A DNA stretch of 59,255 bases, taken from Flavobacteriales bacterium. GTDB taxonomy: Bacteria > Bacteroidota > Bacteroidia > Flavobacteriales_E > Vicingaceae. The position numbers were made by a program, and so were the translations under genes. The stretch lies in contig JAJCYO010000030.1 of the NCBI GenBank assembly GCA_029262875.1, positions 1 to 59,255 on the forward strand. The letters are read 5' to 3'. Below, piece after piece: positions 21,372 to 26,384 of the stretch (positions are counted from its first letter, which is position 1; each line of letters starts with the position of its first letter). The notes beneath the pieces are model-generated. The model ran no database searches. It saw only the letters and a list, made by a program, of their open reading frames with translations, and had not been told where the DNA came from.

Positions 21372-22295
21372 ATGAAAAAACTCTACACGCTTTTTATCTT
21401 CTCAATAATTACATTTTCTACTTTTAGTCAGACATATAGACCCATGTTAGCAAACAGCTCGGAATGGTATTATTTTGAAAGTGGACTTCAATTTGGAACA
21501 ATGAAATATTCCAATGTTGGAGATACGACAATGGCTGGATCTCAATATTCAATAGTTAGTTTATCAACAGCCCCTTCATTTATTCAATTTTCCCCATATT
21601 ATTTAAGAGAAGATAGTATTAATAAGGAAGTTTTGATCAGGGATTTTAATGGCGATGATGTAATACTATATAATTTTAATCTTTTACCAGGAGATACTTT
21701 TCAAAAACCAACTACCATTAATGGAGGTTTTGCTCAATTAATTTTAGACAGTATTTCTAATGATTTCAGCTCTATTCCATCTAACTCACTTCAATTTTGT
21801 GGTAATAATGTTGATTCTAGTATTATAGGCTTTCCTTCTCCAAAAATATTTCATTTTAATAAAGATATTTGGATTGAAGGTATAGGCTCTATGAGACATT
21901 TAATTTATAACGATTGGGAATGTTATAAATTTTTATCTTGTCATTTTGACAATAATGGCACCCGAGACCTATACTTTAGCACATATTTTGGGGATAGTCA
22001 TCTGCATGGAGATTGTTTCACAAATTATCTTGCGGGAATTAATTCTTCTGATATCTCTAATTCATTCATTACTATATCTCCTAACCCAAGCAGTGGGAAA
22101 AATATATCCGTAGCTGGTGAAGGTTTAAATTCTATAAAAATTTATAGTATTCATGGCCAATTAATAAAGACTGCTGCAGTAAAAAATGATGCAATTGAAT
22201 TAAATCTTGAAAATCAACCCAAAGGAATTTACTTAATAAAAGCTCAATTTGAAAATGGAGAAGTAGTAAGCAGAAAACTAATGCTCATTAGATAA
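21372..22295 (+). CDS. T9SS type A sorting-domain protein, paralogue 2
   Basis: A 307-residue secreted protein starting 4 bases after the stop of its paralogue. Signal peptide MKKLYTLFIFSIITFSTFSQ, then TYRPMLANSSEWYYFE, a central part with the shared segment YNFNLLPGDTF, and a type A sorting domain (ISPNPSSGKNI, IYSIHGQLIKT, GIYLIKAQFENGE). The two genes are diverged tandem duplicates: signal peptides, first mature residues and sorting domains are closely similar while the centres differ. The stop codon lies inside the 3' end of the opposing exonuclease gene, an 18-base overlap. Function unknown. Confidence 0.85.
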   Translation: MKKLYTLFIFSIITFSTFSQTYRPMLANSSEWYYFESGLQFGTMKYSNVGDTTMAGSQYSIVSLSTAPSFIQFSPYYLREDSINKEVLIRDFNGDDVILYNFNLLPGDTFQKPTTINGGFAQLILDSISNDFSSIPSNSLQFCGNNVDSSIIGFPSPKIFHFNKDIWIEGIGSMRHLIYNDWECYKFLSCHFDNNGTRDLYFSTYFGDSHLHGDCFTNYLAGINSSDISNSFITISPNPSSGKNISVAGEGLNSIKIYSIHGQLIKTAAVKNDAIELNLENQPKGIYLIKAQFENGEVVSRKLMLIR

Positions 22296-22781
22296 AAGCA
22301 TTCCCAACAATTTTGTAGTAGCCAACGCATCTCCTCCTGCTCGGTGCCTATCTTCTTTAGGAATATGAATTCCCAATTCTTCACTTAATTTTCCCAAGCT
22401 ATAAGATGCTGCCTCTGGAAATACTTTTCCACTCAACTTAATGGTACATACTTTAGGTTCATTTAAATCGAACCCAACTCTTTTTAACTCTGTTTTTAAA
22501 AACATGTAATCGAAATCTACATCATGAGCTACAAATATTTGCCCCTTTAAAAGGTCATTTATCTTTTTAGCAACATCAACAAATACGGGGGCCTCTTTTA
22601 CCATTGTATTGGTAATTCCTGTAAGTTTTGCAACATACCAATCAATTTTCACTCCAGGATTTACAAGGGTAGAATACTCCTCAATAACCTTTTTCCCATC
22701 ATAAATATAGATGGCAACTTCAATTATTTTTCCTTTGATGTGGTTGCCTCCAGTGGCTTCGATATCTACAACTGCATACAC
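22278..22781 (-). CDS. DnaQ-like 3'-5' exonuclease domain protein
   Basis: DEDDh exonuclease of the DnaQ/epsilon type. Motifs are DIEATGGN (ExoI, normally DxExT), HDVDFDYMFLK (ExoII) and HRAGGDALATTKLL (ExoIII, H-x4-D). I start it at the GTG at 22781, which gives a protein of 168 residues opening MYAVVDIEATGG, the usual beginning of this family. The in-frame ATG at 22883 would add 34 arginine-rich residues lying wholly inside the upstream DUF2071 gene. There is no GIY-YIG domain, unlike many Bacteroidota relatives. It is the last gene of the leftward cluster, 17 bases after DUF2071. It may act in proofreading or RNA/DNA trimming; the substrate is unknown. Confidence 0.85.
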   Translation of the reverse strand: MYAVVDIEATGGNHIKGKIIEVAIYIYDGKKVIEEYSTLVNPGVKIDWYVAKLTGITNTMVKEAPVFVDVAKKINDLLKGQIFVAHDVDFDYMFLKTELKRVGFDLNEPKVCTIKLSGKVFPEAASYSLGKLSEELGIHIPKEDRHRAGGDALATTKLLGMLLSNEH

Positions 22782-22798
22782 ACAGTAAAAGTAGTCAT

Positions 22799-23515
22799 TT
22801 AAATAACTATTTTTTTGTCGCCTAATGAAACTTCTGAACCTTCTACTAAAAATACGGAACTGGGTTCCTGATGCTGCAAGCATTCAAAACTTTTTCCATA
22901 TACCGACTCAAAGTCTACATCAATGTTGTAATCAACTAATGAATATATTTTCCAAGGTTCGTGTTCTACTTTAAATTCGTAGGACTTATTTTTTTTAATT
23001 TGAATGTTTCCCCAATAATGCTCTGCAATAAATCGCTCTTGAGAATCTTTAAGCGTATCCTTCAGGATTTTTCCTGTTTTCACAGCAATACTGTTCCATT
23101 TGCCATTCAATTTCCACTCGTATTTAATGTTAAGATGATCAGCATCTTCTTGCCATGAATGCTTCATGGGTTGTTGAATATAATTTTCTTTATAGAGCAT
23201 TTTTGCCACCATTTTGACAATGGTTTTGTCAATAATTTCTTTTATAAAAACCACTCCATGCCTTATTTCATCTCCAACTTTTCGTTTCACATAAAAACGG
23301 AGATTAACTTGTTCAAAATTAATATGAAAGGGAAATTTTATTCCCATTACTTTTGTATTCAGAAATTTGAATCCTACTACACTAACATAATACTTCCCGT
23401 TCCAACTATCTAACTCGGTTCCATGTGGCAGGTATGGTGTTAAAATTTCTGGGTTAACCTCATAATTAATCATGATTAGCTTTCTCCATTCAGTATGTAA
23501 AAATGGGTTTTTCAT
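22799..23515 (-). CDS. DUF2071 (YqjF-like) family protein
   Basis: A 238-residue protein matching the DUF2071/YqjF family: opening FLHTEWRKLIMINYEVNPE, then LTPYLPHGTELDSWNGKYYVSVVGF and the C-terminal segment with YSLVDYNIDVDFESVYG. The fold is related to acetoacetate decarboxylase-like proteins; no enzymatic activity is established. It overlaps the DCC gene by 4 bases (translational coupling) and precedes the exonuclease by 17 bases, so it belongs to the leftward operon. Confidence 0.85.
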   Translation of the reverse strand: MKNPFLHTEWRKLIMINYEVNPEILTPYLPHGTELDSWNGKYYVSVVGFKFLNTKVMGIKFPFHINFEQVNLRFYVKRKVGDEIRHGVVFIKEIIDKTIVKMVAKMLYKENYIQQPMKHSWQEDADHLNIKYEWKLNGKWNSIAVKTGKILKDTLKDSQERFIAEHYWGNIQIKKNKSYEFKVEHEPWKIYSLVDYNIDVDFESVYGKSFECLQHQEPSSVFLVEGSEVSLGDKKIVI

Positions 23516-23910
23516 AAGAAGCTGTTTTTGTAATTGTTATCCAATGGCAATTCACAAGTTCCCTTTCCAAATACTTTATACCTGCAAGCTGCCATTATAT
23601 CGTAAAAGAAATCCCTAATAAAGACTGGAACAATAATGAACCCATAAAACACAGACCTAAAACCTCCTAATGTTTTTAGAATACGAAAAGCAGCAGTAGA
23701 TTTAATATAAGCGTTGTTATTTTCAATCAAAATAACCGAATCTGTTGCTGGATCTATCTTATACTTAGTAAGGTAATGTTTCCCTTTTTCCGATTGTAAT
23801 GAAGCAAAACGAAACACATCTTTTTTATCTCTTTTCACCACATATTTTACCCAGAAACTGCAAAAATTACATTCTCCGTCAAAGAGTATAATATGTTTTT
23901 GAGAACTCAT
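23512..23910 (-). CDS. DCC-family thiol-disulfide oxidoreductase-like protein (DUF393)
   Basis: A 132-residue protein with the DCC family signature: LFDGECNFC near the N-terminus (D-x3-C-x2-C) and FRFASLQSEKG shortly after, followed by a membrane-interacting helix-rich part (FRSVFYGFIIVPVFIRDFFYD) and a late cysteine region. The family is predicted to have a thioredoxin-like fold and to exchange thiols, but substrates are not known. It overlaps both neighbours by 4 bases (DUF2071 downstream, the TIGR01777 gene upstream), a tight sign that the three products are made together. Confidence 0.85.
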   Translation of the reverse strand: MSSQKHIILFDGECNFCSFWVKYVVKRDKKDVFRFASLQSEKGKHYLTKYKIDPATDSVILIENNNAYIKSTAAFRILKTLGGFRSVFYGFIIVPVFIRDFFYDIMAACRYKVFGKGTCELPLDNNYKNSFL

Positions 23911-24818
23911 CTTAAATCTGTTAACGCTTTATCAATATTCGTAAATTTAAATTGAAATCCATCATCCAATAATCGTTTTGGTTGTACAAACCTGCTTTTC
24001 AAAATCAATTCAGGTTCCGTTCTCATAATAAAAGAACCAATTTCTATGGCAAACGTTGGAGCAGGAATTCCAAATGAAACACCTAATGATTTTCTTAAGG
24101 ATTTCATAAATTGTTTGTTATCAATTTTACTGGAACTGGTACAATTAATAGAGCCATCAATGTGATCCTGTTCTTTTAAAAAATCAACTACTCGAATCAA
24201 ATCATTAATGTGTATCCAAGCAAATTTTTGTCTTCCATTTCCATGATAACCCCCTAACCCTAATTTGGAAAGTTTAGTTAAAACAGGTAAAACGCCCTCT
24301 CCTTTACCTAAAACCAAGGAGATTCTTAGCGCTATTTTCCTCGTTTTAGGAGTGTGTGAATTAAAAAATGCTTCTTCCCAAGCTTTGGCCACACTCATGG
24401 AAAAATCACTTCCGATATCTCCATCCTCTTCAGTCATTGCTTTTGTTAACGAGTAATCATAGATGGTTGCCGTAGATGCATTGAACCACACTTTTGGTGG
24501 GTTTTCGATTTGGTTGATGGCTTTTCCTAAAACGTTAGTCGCATCCACCCGTGATGATAAAATCAGCTCTTTATTTTTATCGGTATACCTGCAATCAACT
24601 GACTTTCCAGTTAAATTGATGAGTAATGTTGCTCCATTTAATAACTCTTTCCATTTACCTAATGTTTTTCCATCCCAATGCTCGTATCGAATACCATCAA
24701 TTAGTTTTGATTCGCTTCTTGTAAGCACAATGACCAAGTAACCATTGTTTTTATAATGGGAGGAAAGGGCTTTTCCTATAAAGCCACTTCCTCCTGCTAT
24801 TATAATTTTATTTTTCAT
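23907..24818 (-). CDS. TIGR01777 family NAD(P)-dependent oxidoreductase
   Basis: A 303-residue atypical short-chain dehydrogenase/epimerase of the YfcH/SDR39U1 type. The nucleotide-binding loop GGSGFIGKAL is at 8-17, followed by RYEHWDGKTLGKW, a family landmark, and the C-terminal DUF1731 region (PAPTFAIEIGSFIMRTEPELI, then LLDDGFQF) at about 245-300. The physiological substrate of this family is unknown. It is the upstream partner of the overlapping DCC and DUF2071 genes and follows the small membrane protein gene after 11 bases. Confidence 0.92.
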   Translation of the reverse strand: MKNKIIIAGGSGFIGKALSSHYKNNGYLVIVLTRSESKLIDGIRYEHWDGKTLGKWKELLNGATLLINLTGKSVDCRYTDKNKELILSSRVDATNVLGKAINQIENPPKVWFNASTATIYDYSLTKAMTEEDGDIGSDFSMSVAKAWEEAFFNSHTPKTRKIALRISLVLGKGEGVLPVLTKLSKLGLGGYHGNGRQKFAWIHINDLIRVVDFLKEQDHIDGSINCTSSSKIDNKQFMKSLRKSLGVSFGIPAPTFAIEIGSFIMRTEPELILKSRFVQPKRLLDDGFQFKFTNIDKALTDLR

Positions 24819-24829
24819 CTTTTTTAATA

Positions 24830-25246
24830 TTACGCTGATGCCGGTTTTGTCAGTTTAAATGGTTTGGGTCCATCAGGTTTTGGTTGGTTTGCTTTTCTTC
24901 TTCCTCTAAAAAATAATAAGAGGTTAAAGAATAACATTGCTCCTAAATAGATTGAAAATCCACCTACCTTATACGACAATGTTTCAATCAATTTTTGAGT
25001 CGTTTCAAAAGGGTTGTACTCACTCACATGAATTTTTAATATCAATAAAGCGAACCCAATGTTCATTAGGTAAAACCCTATTTCGAAAAGACGGTTAGTG
25101 GCAAAAGCGATTTCCTCTTTCCCGTGGAATATATCGAGCATAAATACTCTTGCATTCTTAAATAATGTTCTTGCTACAAACAAGGTAAGTAACAAAGCAA
25201 CCGGTAAGTAGATTGCATACGCGATGATGATTAGTTTGTTTTCCAT
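24830..25246 (-). CDS. Three-TM membrane protein, paralogue of the next gene upstream
   Basis: A 138-residue inner-membrane protein with hydrophobic segments at about 4-25, 53-72 and 94-112, and a cytoplasmic Pro/Lys-rich tail (KANQPKPDGPKPFKLTKP). Segments NRLFEIGFYLMNIGFALLIL and YLGAMLFFNLLLFF align with NKILLLGYYLTNIGYVITII and ILAAMHYMNMIVLAFW of the product encoded at 25269-25619, so the two are tandem paralogues. No characterised domain is recognised. It stands between its paralogue (22 bases upstream) and the TIGR01777 gene (11 bases downstream). Confidence 0.8.
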   Translation of the reverse strand: MENKLIIIAYAIYLPVALLLTLFVARTLFKNARVFMLDIFHGKEEIAFATNRLFEIGFYLMNIGFALLILKIHVSEYNPFETTQKLIETLSYKVGGFSIYLGAMLFFNLLLFFRGRRKANQPKPDGPKPFKLTKPASA

Positions 25247-25268
25247 GATATTATATTTTAGTTAATAT

Positions 25269-25619
25269 TTATTTTTTACTAATTGATGTTTTCCGCCAAA
25301 ATGCTAAAACAATCATATTCATGTAATGCATTGCCGCCAAAATGAACACAATGGACGCTATTCGAAGACTCAATTCGTTTATCATTTCATTAAATGAGTT
25401 AATTGTTTTCCATGTGCTTATAATGGTAATCACATAACCTATGTTAGTCAGGTAATAACCCAACAAAAGAATCTTATTTATAGCTTGTGAAATTTCTTCA
25501 TCAATAAATATGGACAATACATAATAGTATCCACTTTTGTAACATTTGTATCCTACTACTACCGTAATGTAGATGGTGATAATGGTGTAAATTATATAGC
25601 TAATTGTATTGTATGTCAT
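25269..25619 (-). CDS. Three-TM membrane protein, first gene of the GbsR-linked operon
   Basis: A 116-residue membrane protein with hydrophobic segments at about 6-27, 49-69 and 84-109 and a short basic tail. It is paralogous to the 138-residue protein downstream. It is the first gene after a perfect 28-base palindrome (25634-25661) whose core repeats at the regulator's own promoter, so it is the most likely direct target of that regulator. Family unknown to me. Such paired small membrane proteins might form a hetero-oligomer, but that is inference. Confidence 0.8.
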   Translation of the reverse strand: MTYNTISYIIYTIITIYITVVVGYKCYKSGYYYVLSIFIDEEISQAINKILLLGYYLTNIGYVITIISTWKTINSFNEMINELSLRIASIVFILAAMHYMNMIVLAFWRKTSISKK

Positions 25620-25633
25620 CTTTTCTATTTTTC

Positions 25634-25661
25634 AAAACTTTCAATAATTATTGAAAGTTTT
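25634..25661. promoter_or_regulatory. Palindromic operator before the membrane-protein operon
   Basis: A perfect 28-base palindrome with the core AACTTTCAAT-AATT-ATTGAAAGTT, 14 bases upstream of the ATG at 25619. The same two arms with the same 4-base spacer occur at 26295-26318 before the regulator gene. A dimeric winged-helix regulator of the GbsR/MarR type would bind such a site. The rest of 25620-25759 shows no other feature. Confidence 0.7.
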
Positions 25662-25759
25662 TATTAAAAAAATATTATTTAATATGTTTTTTCCTGTCAC
25701 TCATTAAGGCATATTGAATTCGCAATAACCATTCTTTAATATATATAGCTCTATCTGGC

Positions 25760-26269
25760 TCATTTCATAAATTTCATAAACACCTTTAAAAACCAATTTT
25801 CTTCTGATGCACTTATCTTCGTTAATGATCCATCTGCCAATTCTGCAAATGATTTAATGTCTTTAATCTGTTTGGTGAAAGCTTCCACTTCTTTTTTATT
25901 GTTTTTGTCCGATTCTATTGTTTGTAGTTCAGCCAACACATGAAGCATAGGATCAAGCTCTTGTCTTTGCCTTACCCGTATTACTCTCTGTGTTACCTTC
26001 CATATGTCTTTCTCTCCCCTAAAAAACTCTTTTCGTTCACCAGATTGATATTCTTTATATACTAACCCCCAATCAATTAAAGTTCTAATGTTCATGTTAG
26101 CATTTCCTCGAGAAATTTTCAACATTTCCATTACATCTTCTGCACTTAATAAATCTTCTGTAACTAAAAATAGTGCATGAATCTGAGCCATGGTTCTATT
26201 TATTCCCCATTTAGAGCCTAAACTTCCCCACTGTTGTATAAATTTTTCTCTTGCTTCATTTAATTTCAT
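25760..26269 (-). CDS. GbsR/MarR-type winged-helix transcriptional regulator
   Basis: A 169-residue protein of the GbsR family. The N-terminal winged helix-turn-helix (about 10-95) contains INRTMAQIHALFLVTEDLLSAEDV, a recognition helix region ISRGNANMNIRTLIDWGL and a wing with EYQSGERKEFFRGEKD. The C-terminal helices probably mediate dimerisation. I use the ATG at 26269 rather than 26284, because the -7 box TATGTTTG spans the intervening bases. GbsR relatives usually repress genes in response to small solutes. A palindromic operator overlaps its own -33 box, indicating autoregulation, and a twin operator stands before the next gene downstream. Confidence 0.88.
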   Translation of the reverse strand: MKLNEAREKFIQQWGSLGSKWGINRTMAQIHALFLVTEDLLSAEDVMEMLKISRGNANMNIRTLIDWGLVYKEYQSGERKEFFRGEKDIWKVTQRVIRVRQRQELDPMLHVLAELQTIESDKNNKKEVEAFTKQIKDIKSFAELADGSLTKISASEENWFLKVFMKFMK

Positions 26270-26273
26270 ACTA

Positions 26274-26303
26274 CAAACATACATAAACTTTCCGAACTTT
26301 CAA
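26274..26303 (-). promoter_or_regulatory. Promoter of the GbsR-type regulator
   Basis: On the minus strand, TTG at 26303-26301, a 19-base spacer and TATGTTTG at 26281-26274, an exact -7 box. It ends 4 bases before the ATG at 26269, implying a leaderless or nearly leaderless mRNA. The -33 TTG lies within the operator. Confidence 0.6.
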
Positions 26304-26318
26304 TAATAATTGAAAGTT
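26295..26318. promoter_or_regulatory. Palindromic operator at the regulator's own promoter
   Basis: Arms AACTTTCAAT (26295-26304) and ATTGAAAGTT (26309-26318) with a 4-base spacer AATA, identical in both arms to the operator at 25634-25661. It covers the -33 element of the regulator promoter. An extra half-site AAACTTTC lies at 26285-26292. It also sits about 60 bases upstream of the hemB -7 box on the other strand. Confidence 0.7.
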
Positions 26319-26376: not shown

Positions 26377-26384
26377 TATATTTG
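26377..26384 (+). promoter_or_regulatory. -7 promoter box TATATTTG of the haem operon
   Basis: Exact TAnnTTTG match, 17 bases before the hemB ATG at 26402, giving a leader of about 13 bases. No clear -33 element. Confidence 0.5.

Follow-up and report, generated by a model that had tools for sequence, protein, structure and literature searches.

A conserved candidate operator at a GbsR-type regulator gene and its predicted membrane/redox operon in a Flavobacteriales bacterium

Results

We analysed 59,255 nucleotides (nt) of a Flavobacteriales bacterium (contig JAJCYO010000030.1, positions 1 to 59,255; here called the window), which carry a gene for a GbsR-type regulator followed by a membrane/redox operon. 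Leftward from position 26318, the order is operator 1, the regulator gene, operator 2 and then six genes. The two putative operators are perfect copies (0 mismatches each) of the palindrome AACTTTCAAT-N4-ATTGAAAGTT, to which no strand is assigned; operator 1 (26295..26318) lies upstream of the regulator gene and operator 2 (25636..25659) stands ahead of the operon, 16 nt from its first start codon. An initial annotation of this DNA had reported two palindromes with identical arms and a 4-nt spacer, and we confirmed both while correcting the distance between the second one and the first operon gene, given there as 14 bases. Its assignment of the regulator to the GbsR type held as well. The protein, a member of the MarR superfamily (169 amino acids (aa) from its likely start; 25760..26269, minus strand), matched PDB 1ku9 (MJ223) with an E value of 2e-23 over profile positions 7-159 of 172 and Pfam MarR_2 with 27 bits at a cut-off of 27, and has the MarR-type winged helix and the MJ223 homology by which GbsR-type regulators are recognized. 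In an alignment of 80 such regulators, the best cysteine column was occupied in 2/80 and 50/80 proteins had no cysteine at all, indicating that an OhrR-like cysteine switch or other thiol sensing is unlikely.

Searching for further copies of the palindrome, we found that the two operators were the only matches with ≤3 mismatches within the window, where 0.03 were expected from shuffling, and likewise the only ones across the 3.94-Mb genome, in which the reversed-pattern control gave 0. A genome search for additional sites, suggested together with the initial annotation, thus yielded none at this threshold. The looser core CTTTCA-N8-TGAAAG had no further perfect match in the genome, and with 1 mismatch it occurred at 21 genome sites (both operators included) versus 16 for the reversed control, which is about chance, indicating that the visible regulon in the source genome is local. 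A wide regulon in this genome was therefore unsupported by the palindrome pattern in the genome-wide searches with strict and relaxed core, and an origin of the palindromes by chance was ruled out by the counts in the window, the genome and the related loci.

The right arm of operator 1, read on the minus strand, provides the TTG (26303-26301) of the regulator promoter, TTG being the -33 element of promoters of this kind; the claim that a palindrome covers the -33 box of the regulator was confirmed by this position. A perfect -7 box TATGTTTG (TAnnTTTG; 26274..26281, minus strand) follows 19 nt after the TTG, with an ATG at 26269 four bases further, and TAnnTTTG is the -7 consensus given in the available text of a study on main-sigma promoters of Flavobacterium psychrophilum (PMC9723704). 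The geometry is conserved: among 50 related loci having an upstream operator (≤3 mismatches), the -7 box was perfect in 34, and a box with at least 5/6 matches was found 12-14 nt past the operator in 45, compared with 3.8% for the perfect and 36% for the 5/6 box in AT-rich controls (n=531) in which any offset was allowed. Following operator 2, a perfect -7 box was found in 0/33 loci and a 5/6 box in 5/33. A sigma-70 scan gave a result close to the shuffled mean (23 vs 19.9) and was not used. The open reading frame of the regulator was listed from 26284, but the gene more probably begins at 26269, since the stretch in between contains the -7 box and is interrupted by a stop in two relatives. 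In the accompanying alignment A2, 13 rows were kept; L023 and L025 were dropped for in-frame stops ahead of the true start, and L039, itself faultless, was dropped as well. Control of the divergent hemB gene by operator 1 was not favoured, as a TATATTTG box at 26377-26384 places the -33 position of that gene ~37 nt beyond the operator.

The regulator profile matched 99 of the 295 genomes of the class. We compared 80 named loci, the best 80 of at least 590, a choice that favours close relatives and in which one contig is counted twice (L042 and L145). An operator with ≤3 mismatches was present directly upstream of the regulator in 50/79 loci (L098 was too short upstream) and directly after it in 27/80, whereas such a site was absent from all 9776 background windows (100 nt each). 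The palindrome is therefore kept at the same two positions in related loci, a conservation that the initial annotation had proposed to examine. With ≤2 mismatches, the operator occurred at 75 places in 54/295 genomes, versus 15 places for the reversed pattern in the same set; 51 of the 75 were no more than 1.3 kb from a regulator, and a strict site of this kind near the regulator was present in 44 of the 99 genomes with a regulator match. In seven loci of the Saprospiraceae/Lewinella type (L053, L061, L062, L066, L077, L088 and L094), a glycine-cleavage T-like gene, so labelled from the representative L077, precedes that of the regulator, and L077 is the only one of them with a ≤3-mismatch operator. 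Genome G027 of the window's genus (L008, L146) carries a regulator split over two frames with internal stops, which represents either a natural loss of the regulator or an assembly error; both operators and the operon are retained in spite of it.

Directly upstream of operator 2 lies a T-rich tract (25660..25677, minus strand). Tracts defined by one regular expression were detected before operator 2 in 33/34 loci (window included) versus 739/3000 AT-rich control 28-mers searched with the same expression, and in several loci a terminator-like hairpin precedes the tract. The spacing between the operators in 27 two-site loci was 565-666 nt with no evident helical phase, leaving DNA looping between them unsupported.

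The six operon genes are all on the minus strand and code for the membrane proteins TMa (116 aa; 25269..25619) and TMb (138 aa, three predicted helices; 24830..25246), a TIGR01777 family oxidoreductase (23907..24818), a DCC1-like thiol-disulfide oxidoreductase family protein (23512..23910), a DUF2071 protein (22799..23515) and a DnaQ-like 3'-5' exonuclease (22278..22781). These families agree with those first proposed. TMa and TMb are paralogues (28% identity, E 1e-13), the oxidoreductase scored 251.6 bits with the NCBIfam TIGR01777 model (cut-off 207.35), and the Pfam scores exceeded their cut-offs for DCC1-like (96.8 bits; 27.8), DUF2071 (174.5; 27) and RNase_T (107.5; 24). The 4-base overlaps reported among three of the genes were found between TIGR01777 and DCC and between DCC and DUF2071. 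The TIGR01777 product resembles PDB 4b4o (SDR39U1; E 7.8e-35) and PDB 3oh8 (SulA-family epimerase; E 2.5e-28), both of the same TIGR01777 family, and an ADC-like fold is predicted for DUF2071 in the accessible part of PMC4520260. Since relatives of the exonuclease have 167-171 aa, its start is more likely the GTG at 22781, which leaves no overlap with DUF2071. The exonuclease gene was seen to accompany the operon in loci of the window's genus alone (L142, L144, L145, L146), with no search aimed at its spread, and it may be a passenger of the operon, probably at the level of the genus. Its 3' end overlaps by 18 bases (22278-22295) that of a convergent gene for a type IX secretion tail-domain protein (21372-22295).

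To learn which genes accompany the regulator, we inspected the first six downstream genes in the 80 loci. TIGR01777 was found in 30, the three-helix membrane family in 29 and CoA_binding_2 in 16, and rarer partners were DUF2071 (8), DCC (7), fatty-acid desaturase (5) and a small protein that we take to be SRPBCC-like (5), a representative of which matched neither Pfam nor NCBIfam. The core of the operon is the three-helix membrane pair with TIGR01777, and DCC, DUF2071, SRPBCC-like, desaturase and CoA-binding proteins are changing partners. The membrane family has invariant residues N51, G57, L60, G64 and N108 (TMb numbering). No Pfam family matched more than 3/29 of its members (best E 0.00075, DUF4149, one member), the best PDB sequence match, at E 0.13, was not convincing, and the predicted fold of three helices (mean pLDDT 80.3) had no PDB fold match at E ≤0.001. 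At L144:4071-6221, in the window's genus, the place of the pair is taken by a phospholipid methyltransferase-domain protein and an unclassified protein, and in Chitinophaga-like loci (L060, L096, L099, L111, L112 and others) an unrelated small membrane family (alignment A4) replaces or joins the three-helix proteins downstream of the regulator.

The membrane family is present in 36/295 genomes, 34 of which have a regulator match, and in 28 of the 36 it is no further than 3.5 kb from the regulator. In the eight genomes with detached membrane genes, a ≤3-mismatch operator lies ahead of these genes in six (L244, L245, L247, L248, L250, L251), and a -7 box follows 12-14 nt after the operator in L244, L248 and L251. 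L244 and L250 are at contig ends, where a nearby regulator copy is possible. The short leader at L244:138-257 holds an operator, a -7 box, a hairpin with a T-run and a second operator with no regulator gene between them. The strongest case for the membrane pair as a target of the regulator comes from these operators before detached membrane genes, and they point to the three-helix family as its most specific one.

A second, separate clade of regulators (clade B; support 100/100 in a tree from which L055 was left out) has a COQ7-like neighbour gene in families f39, f48 and f64. In the three f39 genomes, an operator with ≤2 mismatches is located ahead of the regulator-COQ7 pair (3/3), of MqnE (3/3) and of DAHP synthase (3/3), and the same operator precedes a Fer4-Rieske-cytochrome b operon in 2/3. 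The MqnE aminofutalosine synthase was identified from the G155 copy (485.8 bits vs 434.55), the other copies being assigned by similarity to it, and G155 has an extra site between CcmF-like and aminotransferase genes. With 3 mismatches allowed, the f39 genomes contained 16, 15 and 12 sites versus 8, 7 and 4 in the reversed control, indicating that weak sites in these genomes mean little. The f39 operator set is likely a menaquinone/respiration regulon, as judged from the genes that it precedes. The f39 loci L122-L133 show a divergent GbsR-type regulator with a COQ7-like gene and operator-preceded targets.

Discussion

Together, the data make it probable that the GbsR-type regulator represses both itself and the downstream membrane/redox operon through the two operator copies. 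The single autoregulated repressor of the initial annotation is supported in this respect by comparison, namely by an operator over the -33 box, the two conserved operator positions, the sites at 6/8 detached membrane loci and a core shared with a GbsR-type footprint. The idea of one coherent system stood for the regulator, the membrane pair and TIGR01777; DCC and DUF2071, like the desaturase, CoA-binding and SRPBCC-like partners, recur but vary, and L142 and L144 of the window's own genus are both without the membrane pair.

Several observations weigh against repression of the operon by this regulator. The regulator is patchy, with a protein match in 9/46 genomes of the order, and a strict site (≤2 mismatches) near the regulator is missing in 55 of the 99 genomes with a regulator match. 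The upstream operator is associated with the cluster genes (40 + 7 vs 8 + 19, p 2.5e-6, Fisher test; tables of 74 and 75 loci), with a p value that ignores shared descent, and Saprospiraceae/Lewinella loci often have neither site nor cluster. Among the detached membrane loci, L246 and L249 are without a site, the genome of L246 having no regulator match and that of L249 having one, and L251 (G290) shows the reverse, a site with no regulator match in a genome 81% complete. At L142, TIGR01777-DCC-DUF2071-exonuclease is positioned directly behind operator 2 with no membrane pair, and at L144 two other genes replace the pair. Outside f39, no ≤3-mismatch site was found at any of the nine clade B loci compared (L197-L204, L207), and within f39 the clade A regulators (L194-L196) had none; both findings speak against turning the clade B operator pattern into a general rule.

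As operator 1 holds the -33 TTG in a conserved geometry, a repressor bound there would exclude RNA polymerase from the regulator promoter. Operator 2, located behind the T-rich tract, would most likely hold up transcription into the operon, either as a roadblock or by blocking the start site. Release of the repressor would depend on a small ligand and not on a cysteine switch. A strong competitor for the role of operator 2, to which we give a little less than an even chance, is that the operon has a promoter of its own, with operator 2 as an ordinary operator covering its start, the T-rich tract as a degenerate -7 box and no read-through roadblock. The almost invariable tract is in keeping with such a promoter, some tracts end in TTTG at a distance that would place the start at the site, and the terminator-like hairpin after the regulator in several loci would require a new promoter; however, promoter scores upstream of operator 2 were mostly 7/9 (8 in 7/34), no better than in AT-rich controls.

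The operon may have a role in stress or membrane modification, as first proposed. Our best guess, a tentative one, is that its products form an inducible module in the inner membrane by which lipids or lipophilic redox compounds are modified or detoxified, given that an SDR-type oxidoreductase, ADC-like DUF2071, DCC, the desaturases of relatives and small membrane proteins together suggest a lipophilic substrate at the inner membrane. A response to light or photo-oxidative stress is improbable. Some of the operon families are presumably associated with photolyase clusters, and desaturase partners would suit lipid damage, but no photolyase or cryptochrome was found among the annotated neighbours, whose annotation is partial, and no literature joining the COG numbers of the families with photolyase was found. 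Still less probable is an osmotic or choline/betaine response as for the founding GbsR proteins: family membership speaks for it, but the regulator scored 44.2 bits with the NCBIfam choline regulator CudC (cut-off 218), outside the osmotic GbsR/CudC branch, there were no osmoprotectant neighbours in the window operon, and neither an osmoprotectant transporter nor a gene for betaine synthesis was found among the neighbour families, as far as these are annotated.

We found no description of this gene cluster in the open-licence literature. Searches there revealed no link between TIGR01777 and a GbsR regulator, no report on TIGR01777 together with DUF2071 (taken singly, they were named in two papers and one, respectively), no work on GbsR as a MarR-type regulator in Flavobacterium and nothing related that names two or more of SDR39U1, YfcH, ThyD, DUF393 and YuxK. 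For Bacteroidetes, a 2018 survey of the GbsR family obtained "no consistent picture" from gene neighbourhoods, in the part of its text available (PMC6207618). The conserved operator, the promoter geometry, the core target family and the clade B menaquinone targets make this Bacteroidetes group testable. They connect TIGR01777, DCC and DUF2071, three families without an assigned substrate, and a membrane family that is unclassified through a single switch, and the operator is simple enough to be sought in any Bacteroidetes genome.

Of the known systems, the closest in operator sequence is CydE of Alishewanella sp. WH16-1, likewise a GbsR-type autorepressor. Its first DNase I footprint TATTTCAGAAATTTCTGAAAGTTCA, in the excerpt of the report at hand, shares the core TTTCA-N8-TGAAA with the window operators (PMC6096048), and in an ungapped comparison with operator 1, 16/23 bases were shared, with 34/20000 shuffles as good. 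Judged by this comparison with CydE site 1, the window operators appear to resemble a footprinted GbsR-type site; the second footprinted site of CydE, as given in the same excerpt, has no such palindrome (PMC6096048). This common core, together with the overlap of operator 1 with the -33 element, which leaves it untranscribed from that promoter, makes it highly improbable that the palindromes are leader RNA hairpins, even though operator 2 would be transcribed right before the first start codon. The targets differ: CydE controls cydAB (cytochrome bd), is derepressed by sulfate and does not involve the window operon genes, according to the same part of the report (PMC6096048). CioR of Chromobacterium violaceum, in the available text of PMC11837568, is a GbsR-type repressor of its own operon, like the window regulator, and has cytochrome bd as its target, unlike the window. 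Cytochrome bd genes, which adjoin the regulator in the CydE/CioR branch, were found neither within the window operon nor in the flanks inspected.

Clade B and the CydE/cytochrome bd case hint at a quinone or respiratory theme. This hint, which is a basis for the following reading and not a result, would make the non-osmotic GbsR-type repressors an old family that senses membrane or quinone state with one shared operator: clade A would control a new inner-membrane module (three-helix pair and TIGR01777) serving the homeostasis of lipids or lipophilic redox compounds, clade B menaquinone supply and Rieske/cytochrome b, and CydE the quinol oxidase cytochrome bd, with the clade A loci pairing promoter occlusion with an intra-operon roadblock. 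We regard this as speculative and rather unlikely in its full form, in part owing to the clade B loci outside f39 that lack the operator.

GbsR and OpcR of B. subtilis belong to the same regulator family and have A/T-rich inverted-repeat operators, the GbsR half-sites being 4 bp apart, in the sections of PMC7396694 that were available. Their targets as described there are osmoprotectant and choline functions, unlike the window operon (PMC7396694). By the same account, B. subtilis GbsR acts as a roadblock downstream of the transcription start, and OpcR sits over the -35 element (PMC7396694). Thus, the two modes are split over two proteins in B. subtilis as described in those sections, whereas in the window both operator positions are found at one locus and with one operator sequence.

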